Source of the DNA: a virus
DNA length: 39,621 nucleotides
Direction: 5' to 3' (one strand)
Virus record (IMG/VR): IMGVR_UViG_3300042406_000117
Location: 1-39,621 of that record
A program made the translations under genes and the position numbers. The notes below the pieces were generated by a model that had not been told where the DNA came from, did not search any database, and worked only from the letters and a program-made list of their open reading frames with translations. This document shows, piece after piece, positions 8,028-33,222 of the stretch. Each line of letters starts with the position of its first letter. Within the stretch, counting starts at the first letter, position 1.

Positions 8028-8837
8028 TTATTTGATTGCCCACTTGGGGAATGAGAGTTCTTGGATTCCTTCAACTGCCTTCGGAAACATCTTCTCCAAG
8101 ACACATTTCTGGTATTTGGCTATGGCGTTCATGTATCCGATCCGCCCCTGCTCGATGAAATCACCGGACAGGTTGACGATTGCGGTTTCATAAGGCGCAG
8201 ATGTTTCGACAAAGGCAAGCACAAAATTCGTGCGCTCTAGCCCTGTGGCGGCGTTGAATAGGTCGAGGTAGAGGGCGGCTTGCCAATGGTAGCCTCGGCG
8301 CACCACAAGGGACGCTAGGTCATCAGCCTTGCCGATGCTGGAGGTGGTCTTGATGTCCACCAAGTCATCCCCTGCCTGTGGCACAAGGTCGATCATCCCG
8401 CGCACCTTGGTTTCCCCGATCTGCGAGTAGACGGCAACCTCGGTCTTGTAGCCGGTGACAAACAACGGCTGGAGGTCTAGGTCATTGAGGATCGACTCCG
8501 CGCATTCGTTGGCGGCGTTGAGTTGGGATTGCGTGATGCAGACCTTCCCTTGTGCTACCATCGAATCCCGCCATTCCTGCGCCGCTTTGGTACGGAATGA
8601 GTCGTATTCACTCACGGCATAGGTTTCGGCGTACTCGGTAGGTGTGAGAGCAAGGCAATGCACAAGGCTTCCAAACTCCATCGCCGGCGTTGTCTCCTTC
8701 GGGCCGCTATGGAACCATTTCCAAGGGCTTTGGTCAAACTCCCAGAGCATGGATTTGGAGACATACCCGCCCAAGTTGGAGGGGCTTGCGCCCCCCTCGT
8801 AATACTTGCGCCCAAGGTTGTAGACTAGTTGGCTCAT
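8028..8837 (-). CDS. RecE-like PDDEXK exonuclease
   Basis: A 269-residue nuclease. SKSMLWEFDQSPWKW near residue 27, MEFGSLVHCLAL near 53, KVRGMIDLVPQAGDDLVDIK near 148-167 (catalytic D-x-n-D-x-K) and YHWQAALYLDL near 186 (QxxxY) follow the order of RecE/AddB-type PDDEXK exonucleases. It would degrade one strand of double-stranded ends to make a 3' tail for the RecT protein encoded just upstream. The start overlaps the recT stop by 4 bases, so the two are coupled. It is close in size to the nuclease domain of RecE alone. Confidence 0.88.
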   Translation of the reverse strand: MSQLVYNLGRKYYEGGASPSNLGGYVSKSMLWEFDQSPWKWFHSGPKETTPAMEFGSLVHCLALTPTEYAETYAVSEYDSFRTKAAQEWRDSMVAQGKVCITQSQLNAANECAESILNDLDLQPLFVTGYKTEVAVYSQIGETKVRGMIDLVPQAGDDLVDIKTTSSIGKADDLASLVVRRGYHWQAALYLDLFNAATGLERTNFVLAFVETSAPYETAIVNLSGDFIEQGRIGYMNAIAKYQKCVLEKMFPKAVEGIQELSFPKWAIK

Positions 8838-9622
8838 GGCTCCACCTCCTTGGCCATCTTCTCGAATGCCTCCGCGATCTTGTCAGCGTGTGGTTTCACG
8901 CTATGGGGCTTTGCGCTGTCCTTCTTGGGTGTATCCTCGACAATCGTCGCCTCGACCACCTCGACGGGTTCAGCTTTCGGTTCGGGTTCGGGTTCAGCCA
9001 CGAATGGGTTTGCCTTTGGTGTCACATTGCGCGGTGGTTCTGCAAAGTCCCGCACTTCGTCCTGCGTGTACATGCCCAGCGACATGTCCGAGGCATAGGC
9101 GCGTGACCAGAATGAAGCGGCGCGATAGCGGAGCATTTGACCAGGCATCGTGAGCCATTTTGAACCATTTTTGGTACTCCAACCCTCCTTCTTTGCCATC
9201 TCCAAGGTGATGCGTTCGCCCTTGAGTTCCTCGTTTGTTGCCATGTCACGCGCAACAGCGTAGCACCATGTCGGAGCCTCGTCGGAGTCGAACACGAAGC
9301 GCAGGGGCGAGAACTTCCCGCTTGCGTTCACCATGCCGATCAGCGCGGTAGCAGACCAGCTTGGCCGCCCGTGAATGATGGCAAGGTTTTGGCATACCAT
9401 CAAAGGGTCGAGCCTTGTCCGCTTTGCTACATTGAGGGCAATCGCGCAGTTCGCCACATTACCCGCAAAGTCCTTGGGGACTAGGGTTGACTTTGAGAGC
9501 ATCATCGCTTGCCGTTGCACAAGCTCGAACGCCTGTGTCTCGGCTTGTACCTGTGCCAGAATGCCCGTGTTTTGTGCTTCCTGCGGCACAATCGCATCTT
9601 GTTTTGTTTCGTCGTTTTCCAT
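8834..9622 (-). CDS. recT: RecT-family single-strand annealing protein
   Basis: A 262-residue protein. The ATG at 9622 (TAATACTATG) is chosen over one 10 codons upstream, which lies inside the preceding gene. The core has CAIALNVAKRTRLDPLMVCQ, IIHGRPSWSATALIGMVN and MLRYRAASFWSRAYASDMSL, followed by GMYTQDEV. These are the conserved blocks of the RecT family. The last ~60 residues are a Pro/Glu/Lys-rich tail, probably flexible. It anneals complementary strands in partnership with the RecE-like nuclease. Confidence 0.92.
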   Translation of the reverse strand: MENDETKQDAIVPQEAQNTGILAQVQAETQAFELVQRQAMMLSKSTLVPKDFAGNVANCAIALNVAKRTRLDPLMVCQNLAIIHGRPSWSATALIGMVNASGKFSPLRFVFDSDEAPTWCYAVARDMATNEELKGERITLEMAKKEGWSTKNGSKWLTMPGQMLRYRAASFWSRAYASDMSLGMYTQDEVRDFAEPPRNVTPKANPFVAEPEPEPKAEPVEVVEATIVEDTPKKDSAKPHSVKPHADKIAEAFEKMAKEVEP

Positions 9623-9626
9623 AGTA

Positions 9627-9815
9627 TTAGGCAAAGTGAAAGCCCACTTCAAGTTTCAGATCCTCGTAAGCCTCGGCAAGTTTCCTTGCACCAGACACTT
9701 TTAGGTAATACAGAATAGCCGCATCAGCGTCGATGTGTGCCATCTCTGCATCCGATTTGTCGATTTCCTCCAGCATAGCCAGAGCTTCTTCAATTTGTCG
9801 TTGGTTTGTTTCCAT
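9627..9815 (-). CDS. 62-residue helical hypothetical protein
   Basis: A small acidic protein, METNQRQIEEALAMLEEIDK followed by SDAEMAHIDADAAILYYLK, predicted mostly alpha-helical with a possible short coiled coil at the start. No family is recognised. It lies immediately upstream of recT (4-base gap) and starts from the A/C leader AACCAACAACG. The first 26 bases overlap the end of the upstream HTH gene in another frame. Confidence 0.6.
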   Translation of the reverse strand: METNQRQIEEALAMLEEIDKSDAEMAHIDADAAILYYLKVSGARKLAEAYEDLKLEVGFHFA

Positions 9816-14100: not shown

Positions 14101-14934
14101 ATGCATAAGAAGGGTGACATCAGAAATGACGGGCGGGTATTTTATAACAGGAATAAAAAGTGCATTGGGGGCGAGTACTGGATGACAATGGAGCAATTCT
14201 TAAGGACATGCGGTCACGACTATTACGAAAGAACTGCGGCGTATCGAGAATATTTAGCCGAAATGGCAAGAACAAAAAAAGACCGCGAACAAAAAAAGCG
14301 AGAAGATAGCATTAAGCATTACCACGAAACAAAGCACCTGACTATTAAAAAAAGGAAGGAATCTTACCGCAGGTATCATGCCAGAATGTTGCTTGATCCA
14401 GTTAGACTGGAGAAGTACAGGGCAAAACAAGCTCGGGCAAACAAACGCTACAAAGAGGAACGAGCCGAGAAAAGGGCTAAGCGTGATGCTGAGCGCAAGG
14501 CTAAACAAGAAGCACTACAAAAGATCAAGCAAGAACAAGCCGAGGCTAGGCGCATTGAAAAGGCTAAGATCGCTGCTGAAAAGGCGTTGGCTAAATCCTT
14601 GCGCCCCAAAAGGATTGCGCTAACTGAAGAGCAGCGGAAGGAGAAGAGAAAGCTTGAGAAGCGCAACTACAAGCATGTCCGCAGGGCTAGGATCAACAAT
14701 TGCGAGGTAAAGGCTACACCCAAAATGGTGGAGGACGCCAGAAAACTAGCGGGAGATCGTTGCTATTACTGCGGCAAGAAGGCCGAGTTAACCTTAGATC
14801 ATTTTGAGCCATTGGCCAAAGGTGGGGCGCATTGTGTTTCAAATTTTGTGTTTTGCTGCCATCCATGTAATTCTCGAAAGCGTGATTTGGACCCGTTTGA
14901 TTTTATGGCATCCAATCTAGCCGTTAGTTTCTAG
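14101..14934 (+). CDS. HNH endonuclease with long charged helical middle
   Basis: A 277-residue protein. The N-terminus (GDIRNDGRVFYNRNKK) resembles that of the HNH protein at 1217. Residues about 50-195 are an extended Lys/Glu/Arg/Ala-rich region (AERKAKQEALQKIKQEQAEA) likely to be a long helix or coiled coil. The C-terminus has DRCYYCGKKAELTLDHFEPL, KGGAHCVSN and CCHPCNSRKRD: a classic HNH nuclease with two CxxC zinc pairs, the DH catalytic pair and the N-x-x-x-R end. It is probably a free-standing homing endonuclease at the head of the plus block. A role in terminase-linked cleavage, as for other phage HNH proteins, is less likely given the distance from the terminase. Confidence 0.88.
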   Translation: MHKKGDIRNDGRVFYNRNKKCIGGEYWMTMEQFLRTCGHDYYERTAAYREYLAEMARTKKDREQKKREDSIKHYHETKHLTIKKRKESYRRYHARMLLDPVRLEKYRAKQARANKRYKEERAEKRAKRDAERKAKQEALQKIKQEQAEARRIEKAKIAAEKALAKSLRPKRIALTEEQRKEKRKLEKRNYKHVRRARINNCEVKATPKMVEDARKLAGDRCYYCGKKAELTLDHFEPLAKGGAHCVSNFVFCCHPCNSRKRDLDPFDFMASNLAVSF

Positions 14935-26060: not shown

Positions 26061-26410
26061 TACCAGAACCAGAATCAAGATACGCTGATTACGCTAAGGA
26101 TGGAGGCAACCTCGTTCGCCATTACATGGTCGAGCATGACGGCATTAAGCACAAGTGCCACACGCTGTGCTACGCTTCGTATCTATCGGAAAAGTTTGAC
26201 GCTAAGATTTGGAATGTGGTGCTGGAAAAGTTCGTCAAGCCCTTCATTGGCGTATGCAAACATTGCAAGAAGCGTCGAGAGCTTCACTTTGTTGACGGGA
26301 ATAGAGGATCATTTCCAGCCGAAGAGGATGCGTTTTGTTGCGAGGAGTGTGATAGCGTGTATCACATCAAAGACATCCTAATGGAGACTGGTGCATATAA
26401 AACAAACTAA
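26057..26410 (+). CDS. Cys-rich protein between terminase genes
   Basis: A 117-residue protein. The C-terminal half holds GVCKHCKKRRELHFVDGNRG and FCCEECDSVYHI: two CxxC pairs forming a zinc ribbon. The N-terminal half (NLVRHYMVEHDGIKHKCHTL) has further His and Cys. It is translated with overlaps on both sides (ATGA before; TAATG after). A packaging accessory role is inferred from its position; the family is unknown. Confidence 0.6.
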   Translation: MIPEPESRYADYAKDGGNLVRHYMVEHDGIKHKCHTLCYASYLSEKFDAKIWNVVLEKFVKPFIGVCKHCKKRRELHFVDGNRGSFPAEEDAFCCEECDSVYHIKDILMETGAYKTN

Positions 26411-28893
26411 TGCAGTGGCGCAAACATCCAATCCTTCAGCCTCCCAGCGATGACGAGGTGGCATTGATGGAGCCAGATGATCTCATTGAGCTTCATCGGA
26501 TTTACCATGAGGCCATCGAGAACGCCGAAAAAGATCCATTCCGATACGGGTTTAGGCTTCCGCATTGGGAGAAGGCTGAGGAGCAATTAGCGCAAGTCTC
26601 TGAGGTTCTGGCACTTGGGGGAAATCGTTGTCTTGCCCCAGAGCAGGAGATCTATGATCCAGTCCTAAAGCGTAGTAAGCGCGTTGACGAGCTTGGATTT
26701 GATTTCCACGTACACGCTTGGGATGGCAAAAAAGTGGTTATAGCCAAAGCACAGCCACCCTTTAGGAAAGACAAGCAGGGAATTTACGAAGTTGTTTTAG
26801 ATAACGGTGAATCATTTCGTTGTTCAAAGTCTCACCTTGTCCTTCATAAGTTAGGGTGGATGGCAGTTGGAAACATCAAGCTGAACGACGAGCTTTCAAG
26901 CCCATTCTGCGCTTGCCATCCTCAGTCCAGTTCGGAACGCAACCCTTTAGAGTCACCTCAAGATGGCGGGCATTGCTCTCAAACAGCTCAAGATTCTCAA
27001 TGCGATTATCGTCTTTCACTCCGTTCTTGTGGTGAACAACTTCCGTGCGGGTCAAATACCGACCAAGATGTTTCTCCATTATTAGACGATGCTCAAGGAT
27101 ATAGCGCGTGTGCTTGCGAGCGTTCGGGTGGTTTGGGCAATAAAGCTCAATGTATCCGTCCTTGTTCACGATTCTGCCGCCTTTCCATTCGGGATGTCCT
27201 TCGCCGCTTCGTGGCCCTGTCCGCTGGCATTGTATACCGTGCTTTCTACAAATCTTGTAAATCAACTTCGCGGTCACTCGTGGATCTAGCTCCTTTGCCA
27301 GCTTTTCCGCGATATTCGCTTGAGTCCATCCTTCAGCAATCCAAAGGCGTATTTGATCTACTGGGTAAGTTATTGAGTTGTGCTTCGGCATACCGACACC
27401 CTATCTATTCCCGCCGAGTTGTCAAGATCAATTACCTCCGAGAAGATTATGTCTGGGATTTCCATGTGCCAGTTTACAACAACTACATTGTAGCTGGGGT
27501 TCCCCATCACAACTCGGGCAAAACTGCGTGGGGTTCTTACTGTGTTGTCAAAGCTGCCATCGAAAACCCAAAGTCGGAGATCTTCTGTTTTGCTCAGACC
27601 TCGGAGGTAAGCATCCGCCAGCAACAAAGCGCAGTATGGAACTGGTTGCCGCATGAAATGAGGACAAAGCAAACCTCGGCTAATGCTTACATCTCGTACA
27701 CGAAGAAGAACGGGTTTACAGACAACTCGTTGATCCTGCCCAATGCTTCGCAGATTATCTTCAAGACCTACTCTCAGTATCAGAACAACCCAACTATCCT
27801 AGAAGGTGCGGAGCTTGGTAGCCGTGACCCCCAGTGGCATAACATCGGGGTATGGTTGGACGAGTACCTTCTAGGAAACGAGCTTATTGACACCTTGCGC
27901 TTCCGTCTTGCTACCCGCAACTCCAAGATGCTGGTGACATTCACCCCGATTGACGGGTGGACGGAAGTTATTAAGGAATACTTAGATGGTGCTACAAGCG
28001 TCCAGAGCGTCGAGGCTGAGCTGCTCAACGGCGAGCTTGTCCCCTATGTCCAAAGGAGTAAGAAGCGCAATGCCAGCGTCCATTACTTCCATTCCAAGGA
28101 CAACCCTTTCGGTGGCTACGAGCGAATTAAGGAGACTTTGGTTGGAAGGCCTCGGGAGGAGATCCTAATTCGCGCGTACGGGGTTCCAGTTAAGTCCCAC
28201 GCCACCAAGTTTCCCAAGTTCAATAAAGAAGTCAATGTTGTCCAGCCATCAGAGATCCCAACTACGAATGTTACTCGCTATCACATCATTGACCCAGCGG
28301 GTGCGAAGAACTGGTTTATGGCTTGGATTGCTGTGGATGCGTCTGGTACATTTTGGGTATATCGTGAGTGGCCGGGTGTCGATGTAGGCGACTGGGCTGA
28401 GTGGAAAGGTGGTAAGTGGATGCCGGGACAAGGGGCTAAAGGACAGGGTTTTGGTATTCGTGACTACATGGACTTGATTACCGATCTTGAGGGTGACGAG
28501 AAGGTCTTTGAGAGGCTGATTGACCCTCGGCTTGGAGCGGCAAAGTACCAGTCTGCGGACGGAGCTAGTAGTATTATCGAGGATTTGAACGATTCTGGCA
28601 TGGTTTGCATACCAGCTCCAGGGTTAGACATTGACGATGGGTTGCAGGCTTTGATCGGGAAAATGGCATTTGATACAACTATCCCGTCAGATTCTGTCAA
28701 CCGACCGCATTTCTATGTCTCTTCCGAGTGCGAGAACATTATCCAAGCCTTGAGTGAATACACGGGTGACGGGGGCTTGAAGGAAGCATGGAAAGACCCA
28801 GTCGATGTTCTGCGTTACGCCGCCATTGCTGGAATAGATCATGTTGACGAAACCAGAAATCTTGCTACAAGACAGGGAGCAGGAGGCTACTAG
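26410..28893 (+). CDS. terL: Large terminase, interrupted by an intein
   Basis: An 827-residue precursor. Residues 1-73 and 369-827 form a 532-residue large terminase (packaging motor ATPase and nuclease). Ligating them yields the P-loop ALGGNR+SGKTAWG. IGVWLDEYL is the Walker B segment, YHIIDPAGAKNW and IDPRLG mark the nuclease acids, and DPVDVLRYA lies near the end as in other terminases. Residues 74-368 are an intein: Cys1 (CLAPEQEI), a block B (FRCSKSHLVL), a block F (VWDFHVPVYNNYIVAG) and the end VPHHN before Ser+1. The unspliced protein cannot have a working P-loop, so splicing must precede packaging. Confidence 0.9.
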   Translation: MQWRKHPILQPPSDDEVALMEPDDLIELHRIYHEAIENAEKDPFRYGFRLPHWEKAEEQLAQVSEVLALGGNRCLAPEQEIYDPVLKRSKRVDELGFDFHVHAWDGKKVVIAKAQPPFRKDKQGIYEVVLDNGESFRCSKSHLVLHKLGWMAVGNIKLNDELSSPFCACHPQSSSERNPLESPQDGGHCSQTAQDSQCDYRLSLRSCGEQLPCGSNTDQDVSPLLDDAQGYSACACERSGGLGNKAQCIRPCSRFCRLSIRDVLRRFVALSAGIVYRAFYKSCKSTSRSLVDLAPLPAFPRYSLESILQQSKGVFDLLGKLLSCASAYRHPIYSRRVVKINYLREDYVWDFHVPVYNNYIVAGVPHHNSGKTAWGSYCVVKAAIENPKSEIFCFAQTSEVSIRQQQSAVWNWLPHEMRTKQTSANAYISYTKKNGFTDNSLILPNASQIIFKTYSQYQNNPTILEGAELGSRDPQWHNIGVWLDEYLLGNELIDTLRFRLATRNSKMLVTFTPIDGWTEVIKEYLDGATSVQSVEAELLNGELVPYVQRSKKRNASVHYFHSKDNPFGGYERIKETLVGRPREEILIRAYGVPVKSHATKFPKFNKEVNVVQPSEIPTTNVTRYHIIDPAGAKNWFMAWIAVDASGTFWVYREWPGVDVGDWAEWKGGKWMPGQGAKGQGFGIRDYMDLITDLEGDEKVFERLIDPRLGAAKYQSADGASSIIEDLNDSGMVCIPAPGLDIDDGLQALIGKMAFDTTIPSDSVNRPHFYVSSECENIIQALSEYTGDGGLKEAWKDPVDVLRYAAIAGIDHVDETRNLATRQGAGGY
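26629..27513 (+). mobile_element. Intein inside the terminase P-loop (295 aa)
   Basis: The element lies in frame, from Cys74 (TGT, 26629-26631) to Asn368 (AAC, 27511-27513), with Ser as the +1 residue. Blocks A, B, F and G are recognisable; the penultimate His is present (H-H-N). The splicing domain is about 82 residues at the front and about 40 at the back. The block between (residues about 156-328) is not an endonuclease in this frame. It is a Ser/Cys/Gln/Leu-rich stretch (SSSERNPLESPQDGGHCSQT) that mirrors the HNH gene on the opposite strand. Confidence 0.88.
26876..27391 (-). CDS. HNH homing endonuclease, antisense within the intein
   Basis: A 171-residue protein on the minus strand. Residues 12-60 (VDQIRLWIAEGWTQANIAEK, LIYKICRKHGIQC) look like a helix-turn-helix. 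HPEWKGGRIVNKDGYIELYC is followed by TRYILEHRLIMEKHLGRYLT and EVVHHKNGVKDDNRIENLEL, the typical HNH_3-type phage homing endonuclease (E-H-R-x-x-[ML]-x-x-x-L-G-R ... V-H-H-x-[ND]-G-x-x-x-[DN]-N-R-x-x-N-L). The gene lies wholly inside the intein, between blocks B and F. It starts with ATG at 27391 without a Shine-Dalgarno sequence. It must be expressed from a separate minus-strand transcript and presumably cuts intein-free terminase genes. Confidence 0.9.
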   Translation of the reverse strand: MPKHNSITYPVDQIRLWIAEGWTQANIAEKLAKELDPRVTAKLIYKICRKHGIQCQRTGPRSGEGHPEWKGGRIVNKDGYIELYCPNHPNARKHTRYILEHRLIMEKHLGRYLTRTEVVHHKNGVKDDNRIENLELFESNARHLEVTLKGCVPNWTEDGKRRMGLKARRSA

Positions 28894-32001: not shown

Positions 32002-32043
32002 ACACCCTCGGCAGATTAAAACCCTGTCGGGGGTGTTTCTTTT
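32002..32043 (+). terminator. Second Rho-independent terminator
   Basis: ACACCCTCGGCAG and CTGTCGGGGGTGT give a 13-bp stem with two G-U pairs around a 9-base loop, followed by TTCTTTT. Together with the hairpin at 31957 it forms a tandem terminator that isolates the terminase/portal genes from the opposing gene at 32042. Confidence 0.85.
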
Positions 32044-32533
32044 ACGCCATTAGAACGATCTTGTCCTTAGCGTCTTGCTCCTCAATCAACTGATTGAAAT
32101 CACGGACATGGTGGGCGTATTCAATGTCCTCATAGTGATCTCCAATTATCTCAATCCTGTGGGGGTGTCTCATCTTGCGTATCGCGTGTTGCTTGAGTTG
32201 ATACGCCCTACCAGTCGTTATGCCCAAGAGCCGACCAAGTTGAGCTGGTTTTAGGTCATCGTTTTGAAGGATAAATATATCGCGCTTATCAATCCCAGAC
32301 TCCATGATTTGAGGCCAAAACCCATCAAGGCTTATCTCGCATCCATTTGGTAGCTTCTCGTCTTTCACGATAAGTGTCAGCTTCTTTTTAAGTTGTCGTT
32401 TTTGGATGTCGAGTTGATCAATGTTGCCTCTAATCGTATCAATGATTTGGTTGATCCTAACGATCTTACCCTTCTCGAACTCAATCTTCCTGTCTACCGA
32501 TCTGATCTCCTTCTGTATTTGTTCTGAATTCAT
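32042..32533 (-). CDS. Coiled-coil protein with sigma-70 region 4-like C-terminus
   Basis: A 163-residue protein. The first ~60 residues form a coiled coil (IEFEKGKIVRINQIIDTIRG, IDQLDIQKRQLKKKL). Residues about 93-124 read LKPAQLGRLLGITTGRAYQL and KQHAIRKMRHPHR. This is very close to sigma region 4.2 (LxEIGxxxGVTxxRVxQIxxxALxKLRHPxR), the helix-turn-helix that contacts the -35 element. Regions 2 and 3 are missing. It is a candidate late-gene activator or sigma-region-4 mimic that binds RNA polymerase and redirects it to phage promoters. It is the only minus-strand gene in the head/tail half, with its own likely promoter (32551-32593). Confidence 0.72.
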   Translation of the reverse strand: MNSEQIQKEIRSVDRKIEFEKGKIVRINQIIDTIRGNIDQLDIQKRQLKKKLTLIVKDEKLPNGCEISLDGFWPQIMESGIDKRDIFILQNDDLKPAQLGRLLGITTGRAYQLKQHAIRKMRHPHRIEIIGDHYEDIEYAHHVRDFNQLIEEQDAKDKIVLMA

Positions 32534-32550
32534 AGCGTTTCGAGGCTTAT

Positions 32551-32593
32551 TTTATAGGGTGTTTTGTAGCGTTCAAGAATAATTTGAATTATT
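32551..32593 (-). promoter_or_regulatory. Promoter and palindrome of the sigma-like gene
   Basis: On the minus strand TATAAAAT (-10, ending at 32551 side) lies 18 bases before the start codon. TTCTTG is found 17 bases upstream as a weak -35, or TTGAAC at 14 bases. A palindrome, AATAATT-TG-AATTATT (32578-32593), sits just behind the -35 position and could be an autoregulatory operator. The predicted leader is only about ten bases. Confidence 0.5.
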
Positions 32594-33030
32594 TTACATG
32601 GTGTATGGCATCACCAACGGTTAAGTTGACTTACACTTGACTCCCGGCATTCGAGGAAGGCTCTAGGGCATAGTTCGCCTTAAGCGGCTAAACTATGTTG
32701 ATACTCCCGTATATTCTTCGGAAAGGACATTCACACACCAGCAGGGCTGGAACCAAGGATAGCAGAGGGTTGAGGCTGTAGGTCTGCATCAAGCTCCTTG
32801 ATCGTCACACTCTATTTAACTACGCCGCGACTGACTTCAAGCGTAGTACCCGTGAGACTTTCACCTAGCTTCCGTGCGGTCGTTTGAGCGTTCCTCGGTT
32901 GCTTGAATATGTCACTAACTCTCTGGGTAAAGCAAAGGGCTAACGCGAGGAAGTCAGAACCCGCGCTAGCCCTTAGATCCATTGCTTTACGCGCAGGAGG
33001 GGTGATTGGTGACAGATTTCTGACTTCCTG

Positions 33031-33055
33031 TCGACGCAAATAATGCACGATTTTT
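33031..33055 (+). terminator. Possible weak terminator
   Basis: TCG-ac-GCA-aataa-TGC-a-CGA forms a short interrupted stem followed by TTTTT. It would end the candidate RNA just after the strand that forms the pseudoknot. The stem is weak, so confidence is low. It overlaps copy 1 of the 12-base repeat CGCAAATAATGC. Confidence 0.35.
33035..33046. repeat. 12-bp repeat CGCAAATAATGC, copy 1
   Basis: CGCAAATAATGC is found here and at 33166-33177. Each contains GCA-5-TGC, an inverted pair. They bracket the two larger palindromes at 33084 and 33107. A shared binding protein for all four sites is possible. Confidence 0.8.
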
Positions 33056-33083
33056 CCGTCCCGTCAATAGGAAATCTTTAAGA

Positions 33084-33123
33084 TCACGATTTGTGATGAG
33101 TTCTAAGGTCGCAATTTGCGACC
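33084..33123. promoter_or_regulatory. Pair of related palindromic operator-like sites
   Basis: TCACGATTTGTGA (33084-33096) and GGTCGCAATTTGCGACC (33107-33123, perfect 8-base arms) share the consensus TCRCRATTTGYGA. Their centres are 25 bases apart. They lie about 100-140 bases before the scaffold gene. Good candidates for a dimeric repressor or activator of the capsid operon. Confidence 0.6.
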
Positions 33124-33165
33124 AGCTAATACCTTACCAAGTTGAGCAAGTTACTTGACATTAAT

Positions 33166-33177
33166 CGCAAATAATGC
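33166..33177. repeat. 12-bp repeat CGCAAATAATGC, copy 2
   Basis: This copy lies six bases after a TTGACA box (33155-33160) and directly before TTGAC, 46 bases upstream of the scaffold start. No standard -10 follows at the right spacing. The repeat could replace it as part of a phage-specific promoter, for example for the sigma-like protein encoded next door. Confidence 0.7.
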
Positions 33178-33222
33178 TTGACTTCGCTCATCGCCACCGC
33201 AGGGCGTTAACCAGCGTACAAA

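Follow-up and report, generated by a model that had tools for sequence, protein, structure and literature searches.

We have identified, by comparison with related viruses, a previously undescribed phage RNA gene, which consists of a predicted promoter-RNA-terminator-like unit followed by an exchangeable structured domain. The window, by which we mean the whole stretch of DNA analysed, comprises 39,621 nucleotides (IMG/VR record IMGVR_UViG_3300042406_000117, positions 1-39,621), and the gene almost certainly lies on its minus strand, in a gap (32534-33222) between a minus-strand ORF at 32042-32533 and a plus-strand ORF from 33223. We consider a new family of phage small RNAs with an exchangeable read-through domain to be the best reading, with a probability of roughly 0.6. 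The features on which this reading draws are as follows.

33040-33067, minus strand: predicted sigma70-type promoter, with -35 TTGACG (33067-33062), a 16-bp spacer and -10 CATTAT (33045-33040)
32929-33032, minus strand: small RNA or 5' domain of ~105 nt, from hairpin 1 through the T-tract, described by covariance model R1
33011-33032, minus strand: hairpin 1, stem GACAG/CUGUC, whose loop 33019-33027 (extendable to 33018-33029) is predicted to pair with the loop of hairpin 2
32978-32998, minus strand: middle hairpin, with covarying pairs CG/UA and AU/GC
32935-32974, minus strand: hairpin 2, GC-rich stem of 13-15 bp, with loop 32948-32959 as the second kissing strand
32929-32936, minus strand: T-tract after hairpin 2, UUUGCUUU, probable intrinsic terminator
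32641-32925, minus strand: module A, second structured RNA domain of ~285-290 nt, exchanged for modules B, C and D in relatives
32042-32533, minus strand: 163-aa ORF, weakly sigma70 region-4-like, downstream on the same strand and found in only some relatives

The genes at the locus follow the order portal, small genes, gap, scaffold-position gene and capsid. The initial annotation had placed a gene-free region with one large structured RNA of about 460 bases at 32599-33055. The gap is real over its full extent (32534-33222), and the homologues contain no conserved open frame across it: their longest stop-free runs are 21-79 codons with no common frame, and indels of 1-2 nt predominate among them. 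As far as reading frames tell, neither the 5' domain nor the second domain encodes a conserved protein. On the other hand, the borders had to be redrawn, since the conserved element runs from 32641 to ~33067, with sharp ends outside which the flanks differ among relatives. The inverted repeats that had been described are present, including a 12-bp perfect match between the loop 32948-32959 and 33018-33029. With regard to two helices described as stacked, homologues retain 32762-32787 (GCAG/CUGC) with a compensatory change (helix 9), but not 32788-32802 (ATCAAG/CTTGAT), where they read ATCAAACTCTCTAG, as in L020.

Using the major capsid protein (SU10_MCP family) as the query, we collected 80 related virus loci, cited here by L numbers, and further loci were added through pattern scans of the RNA region itself. 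All copies found belong to a single family of phages with SU10-type capsids and occupy the same site there; this also holds for 61 of 61 copies from loci that were found by the pattern and not by the capsid query. The R1 model matched all five long-gap records searched versus none of the 13 short-gap records searched; these records may be incomplete. Among named phages we found no close DNA relatives; in C75C1, the named phage with the most similar capsid and portal proteins, the two genes leave no space between them for the RNA. A search of bacterial genomes for related capsid proteins, made in order to find a host, likewise found none. Plus-strand R1 matches in the short-gap relatives L055, L058 and L065 proved to be terminator hairpins only, and these loci were not counted as members. 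Separately, eight short-gap relatives (L054, L058, L061, L065, L067, L080, L026 and L028) carry a plus-strand TTGACA promoter-like site in the same slot, flanked by the p67 and scaffold-position genes; ~80-130 nt further on there is a strong GC-rich hairpin followed by a T-run. Judging by this arrangement, a different small RNA may occupy the position in these phages.

Covariance analysis of the homologous regions confirmed that the region is structured: covariation is strong in the 5' domain, and module A has covariation of its own. In the 5' domain, both sides have changed in 27 of 31 pairs, and the covariation score is 0.391, whereas shuffles gave 0.237 and slid partners never exceeded 0.163; the homologues are members of one phage family, so that these counts are not independent events, and the slid controls keep this relatedness. 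The R1 match in the window itself (32926-33037) scores 98 bits with an E of 1e-27, the window being part of the training set. Hairpin 2 alone shows changes on both sides in 13 of its 14 pairs. The most distinctive feature is the relation between the two outer loops. In 39 of 39 non-redundant homologues, loop 1 is complementary to loop 2 along 7-11 nt, 9.1 on average, whereas mismatched partners reach a mean of 4.3, and none of 2000 permutations attained the observed mean. The same 39 homologues contain 30 and 32 distinct loop sequences, which differ widely, and the comparison identifies loops 1 and 2 as co-evolving complements. An unpaired C-rich linker, CACCAAUCACCCC, precedes the middle hairpin; a search for targets of this linker within the phage genome gave none beyond chance.

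Upstream of hairpin 1, the -35 and -10 elements are separated by 16-17 bases and end 6-7 bases before the hairpin in nearly all homologues. The plus-strand GTCAA and GCAAATAATGC correspond to the minus-strand TTGAC (-35) and GCATTATTTGC (-10). At the fixed distance from hairpin 1, the promoter score was 8.6 of 12 across the 39 homologues, compared with 5.8 in shuffles; TTG is found at the -35 position in 38 of them, and the sequence of the spacer is not conserved. As in terminator-ended small RNAs, a sigma70-type promoter is present at a fixed distance upstream. We also observed a direct repeat, CGCAAATAATGC, at 33035-33053 and 33166-33184, one copy of which covers the minus-strand -10 region while the other precedes the scaffold-position gene; it is perhaps a shared control site.

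At the other end of the 5' domain, a GC-rich stem is followed by a 3' T-tract, which is the arrangement of a terminator-ended small RNA, although the loop of 12-14 nt is longer than those of typical terminators. The tract is T-rich in homologues, and in the window it is interrupted. Copies with the type D module have an entirely different hairpin 2 stem (AAGCTCCGATGCGG...CCGCCTCGGAG) and yet keep the T-tract, and in phages with different modules the similarity stops at the T-tract. Both observations are expected of an intrinsic terminator. Accordingly, we regard hairpin 2 and the T-tract as a likely intrinsic terminator.

Beyond the T-tract, module A, which ends at 32641 with GCCGGGAG as its 3' end, follows in the window and in 34 other distinct loci. 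Module B takes its place in 22 distinct loci, module C in 14 and module D in 3, and L068 and L071 carry the 5' domain with none of modules A-D. This exchange occurs even among close relatives: L001, L002 and L003 have 96-98% capsid protein likeness to the window, yet they carry modules A, C and B, respectively. Read on the minus strand, module A shows changes on both sides in 15 of 75 modelled pairs, and its double-change cells number 126, compared with 47 in shuffled and at most 17 in slid controls. However, 49 of 500 shuffles had at least as many double-change pairs, and the support for module A is therefore weaker than that for the 5' domain. In module B of L076 and L127, one loop contains a 66-nt insertion; such insertions occur in peripheral loops of structured RNAs. 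In type D (L064, L070 and L077), a T-arm-like CCGGTTCAATCCCGG directly follows the long helix on the minus strand. Modules A and D may have a common layout of long helix, short hairpin and UGUG/UCGUG, with differing sequences.

These results also bear on the proposal that the region forms one large ornate RNA. The structure stood up to comparison, but the unity of a 460-base RNA did not emerge from it; what is best supported is an RNA of ~105 nt with a promoter and a terminator-like end, followed by an exchangeable domain of ~290 nt. A single RNA of ~400 nt would make hairpin 2 an internal element and the T-tract a U-rich linker, and such RNAs might form homo-oligomers like those of GOLLD, ROOL and OLE, with the loops kissing between molecules. 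In its favour, the distance from the promoter to the end of module A is fixed at 395-406 nt in 33 type A copies, a structured module directly follows in nearly all copies, and we saw no further promoter between the 5' domain and the module. Also, the kissing loops of ROOL and GOLLD, which were found by covariation, were later shown to be intermolecular (PMC12286853). On the other hand, the T-tract is kept in type D despite the other stem, the common sequence ends exactly there, two loci lack a module altogether, and the modules exchange freely. We also considered a closing helix in which the C-rich linker would pair with a purine tract of module B, but rejected it, because the 5' domain matched its own module B no better than mismatched partners (355 of 5000 permutations). 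No pairing between the 5' domain and a module could thus be shown, and the two parts may form one RNA or two; on balance, we consider a single large RNA rather unlikely.

The genes next to the RNA suggest two further explanations. The downstream neighbour in the window had been called sigma-like, and a Sigma70_r4 match indeed exists, with an E of 0.005 that is below the curated cut-off. The window, L002, L007, L011, L016 and L019 have a sigma-like ORF downstream on the same strand; in L002, L005 and L021, GIY-YIG and HNH-motif ORFs come after the type C module, and in L068 and L071 an ORF begins soon after the T-tract. The RNA could accordingly be a regulated leader, an attenuator whose terminator controls read-through into a minus-strand ORF of the sigma-region-4-like or homing endonuclease kind. 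This is improbable, considering that several copies (including L009, L013, L018, L045 and L049) have no long minus-strand ORF downstream, and that the downstream ORFs are mutually unrelated while the RNA is constant.

Homing-type nucleases adjoin the RNA within the gap on the minus strand in L002, L005 and L021 and on the plus strand in L014 and L042; T5orf172/GIY-YIG and endonuclease VII were called by Pfam, and HNH by sequence motif only. These neighbouring nucleases may drive the exchange of modules. A separate reading is that the RNA itself is a mobile, intron-like element driven by homing endonucleases, with modules A-D as remnants of different mobile RNAs. The HNH, GIY-YIG and endonuclease VII genes beside it in several relatives and the sharp borders of the module swaps would suit such an origin, but all 61 pattern-found copies are at one locus, and there is neither a match to the Rfam group I or II intron models (in the window and 14 homologous loci) nor an interrupted gene, so that we think it very improbable.

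The initial annotation had read the RNA on the plus strand, and here the evidence points the other way. In hairpin 2, the variation consists of G-U changes when read on the minus strand, which would be A-C changes on the plus strand, by 34 to 0. All stems of the 5' domain, in the minus-strand reading, contain 80 G-U cells versus 12 A-C cells. Module A alone is less one-sided, with 41 to 29 for the pairs that are common to both strand models; nevertheless, its best-supported helix, helix 8, has an invariant G-U pair and C-G/U-G changes, and it favours the minus strand because its pairs are standard only there. The minus-strand fold has a z of -3.31, with none of 100 shuffles as good, compared with -1.49 and 9 of 100 for the plus strand. 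For modules B, C and D, too, the minus strand gives the better fold, and module A, folded as a single sequence, was not exceptional on either strand. The local helices can be drawn on the plus strand too, but the A-C changes, the modest fold score and the lack of any conserved promoter-like plus-strand sequence upstream of 32641 make a large plus-strand RNA at 32599-33055 hardly credible. Taken together, these comparisons indicate a noncoding RNA gene that is almost certainly on the minus strand, and this correction matters for any transcriptome check.

With regard to known families, the suggestion that no GOLLD, ROOL, OLE or HEARO sequence is recognisable and that the class may be new agrees with our searches. 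Rfam 15 gave no match at the gathering score in the window and 14 homologous loci, and permissive Rfam searches of the window and the other module types returned chance-level matches only; the covariance models of GOLLD, ROOL, OLE, HEARO, raiA and other Rfam families thus did not detect the RNA. ARAGORN found no tRNA or tmRNA in the window or in 48 related loci. GOLLD has a covarying kissing loop, a universally conserved 3' region and a less conserved 5' region, and both GOLLD and ROOL are often, though not always, near phage tRNA islands (PMC12286853). The RNA described here resembles GOLLD as a phage-encoded structured noncoding RNA with a covarying kissing loop and one conserved and one variable region. 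Unlike GOLLD, which has ~800 nt, it has 400 nt or less, has its own terminator-like hairpin, is not near a tRNA island, and reverses the layout, with a constant 5' domain and an exchangeable 3' module. It likewise resembles ROOL in being phage-encoded with kissing loops seen by covariation, but ROOL, too, is the longer RNA, the conserved core here is much shorter, and no tRNA genes are nearby. The new RNA is therefore somewhat like GOLLD and ROOL in its loop contacts, yet their models do not recognise it.

Two other systems show partial likeness. Plasmid antisense RNAs of the RNAI/RNAII type are short and have a sigma70 promoter, a GC-rich terminator and hypervariable complementary loops, and all of these features recur here, the terminator as a prediction. 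In contrast to them, both complementary loops are in the same RNA, and there is no known target gene on the opposite strand. The packaging RNA of phi29 is also a phage RNA near head genes, with loops that vary in sequence and are conserved in pairing, as in our case; the differences are the lack of an Rfam match and the position of the paired loops, which belong here to the first hairpin and the terminator-like hairpin. Moreover, the RNA is absent from relatives with 70-83% capsid identity, and it is thus hardly essential for packaging.

For the small RNA with an exchangeable read-through domain, the following course of events can be proposed. Starting just inside 33035, RNA polymerase would use the conserved sigma70-type promoter to transcribe hairpin 1, the middle hairpin and the GC-rich hairpin 2, with the structured type A domain downstream on the same strand. 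Termination at hairpin 2 and the T-tract would give a small RNA of ~105 nt as the main product, and read-through would add the domain of ~290 nt, giving a minor form of ~400 nt. The loop-loop contact would tie the 5' hairpin to the terminator, resulting in a compact and RNase-resistant RNA, and the C-rich linker CACCAAUCACCCC would stay free as a contact site. More speculatively, the RNA might be active in trans within the infected host, targeting a G-rich site in an mRNA or serving as a protein decoy; such a trans-acting regulatory or decoy role is a tentative suggestion. The exchangeable domain might confer an interaction specific to the host or to a competitor; its replacement among close relatives that retain the promoter and the 5' domain would then be explained. 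A further possibility, which we regard as doubtful, is a new RNA class that assembles with itself through the hypervariable self-complementary loop pair as a "self" tag and carries an exchangeable functional domain; if true, competing phages would keep the chassis and swap the domain.

To our knowledge, few phage noncoding RNAs have been described, most of the ornate ones have no assigned function, and constant chassis with swappable domains, which are familiar in proteins, have been little described in RNA. The present family shows this arrangement in RNA. It is small enough for simple in-vitro tests, and the natural variants supply a built-in test of the key contact in the form of dozens of loop pairs, in each of which the loops match only one another.

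Elsewhere at the locus, the gene that had been called scaffold does lie at the scaffold position, and its name is taken from that position only. In the rest of the window, the large-terminase ORF (26410-28893, plus strand) has an intein-like insert (PF14890, residues 113-368) before the terminase domain, with a match of 33.3 bits that is just under the cut-off. A PD-(D/E)XK nuclease (DUF3799) at 8028-9652 on the minus strand adjoins a RecT-family protein, forming a recombination pair, and a free-standing HNH endonuclease gene is located at 14101-14934 on the plus strand.
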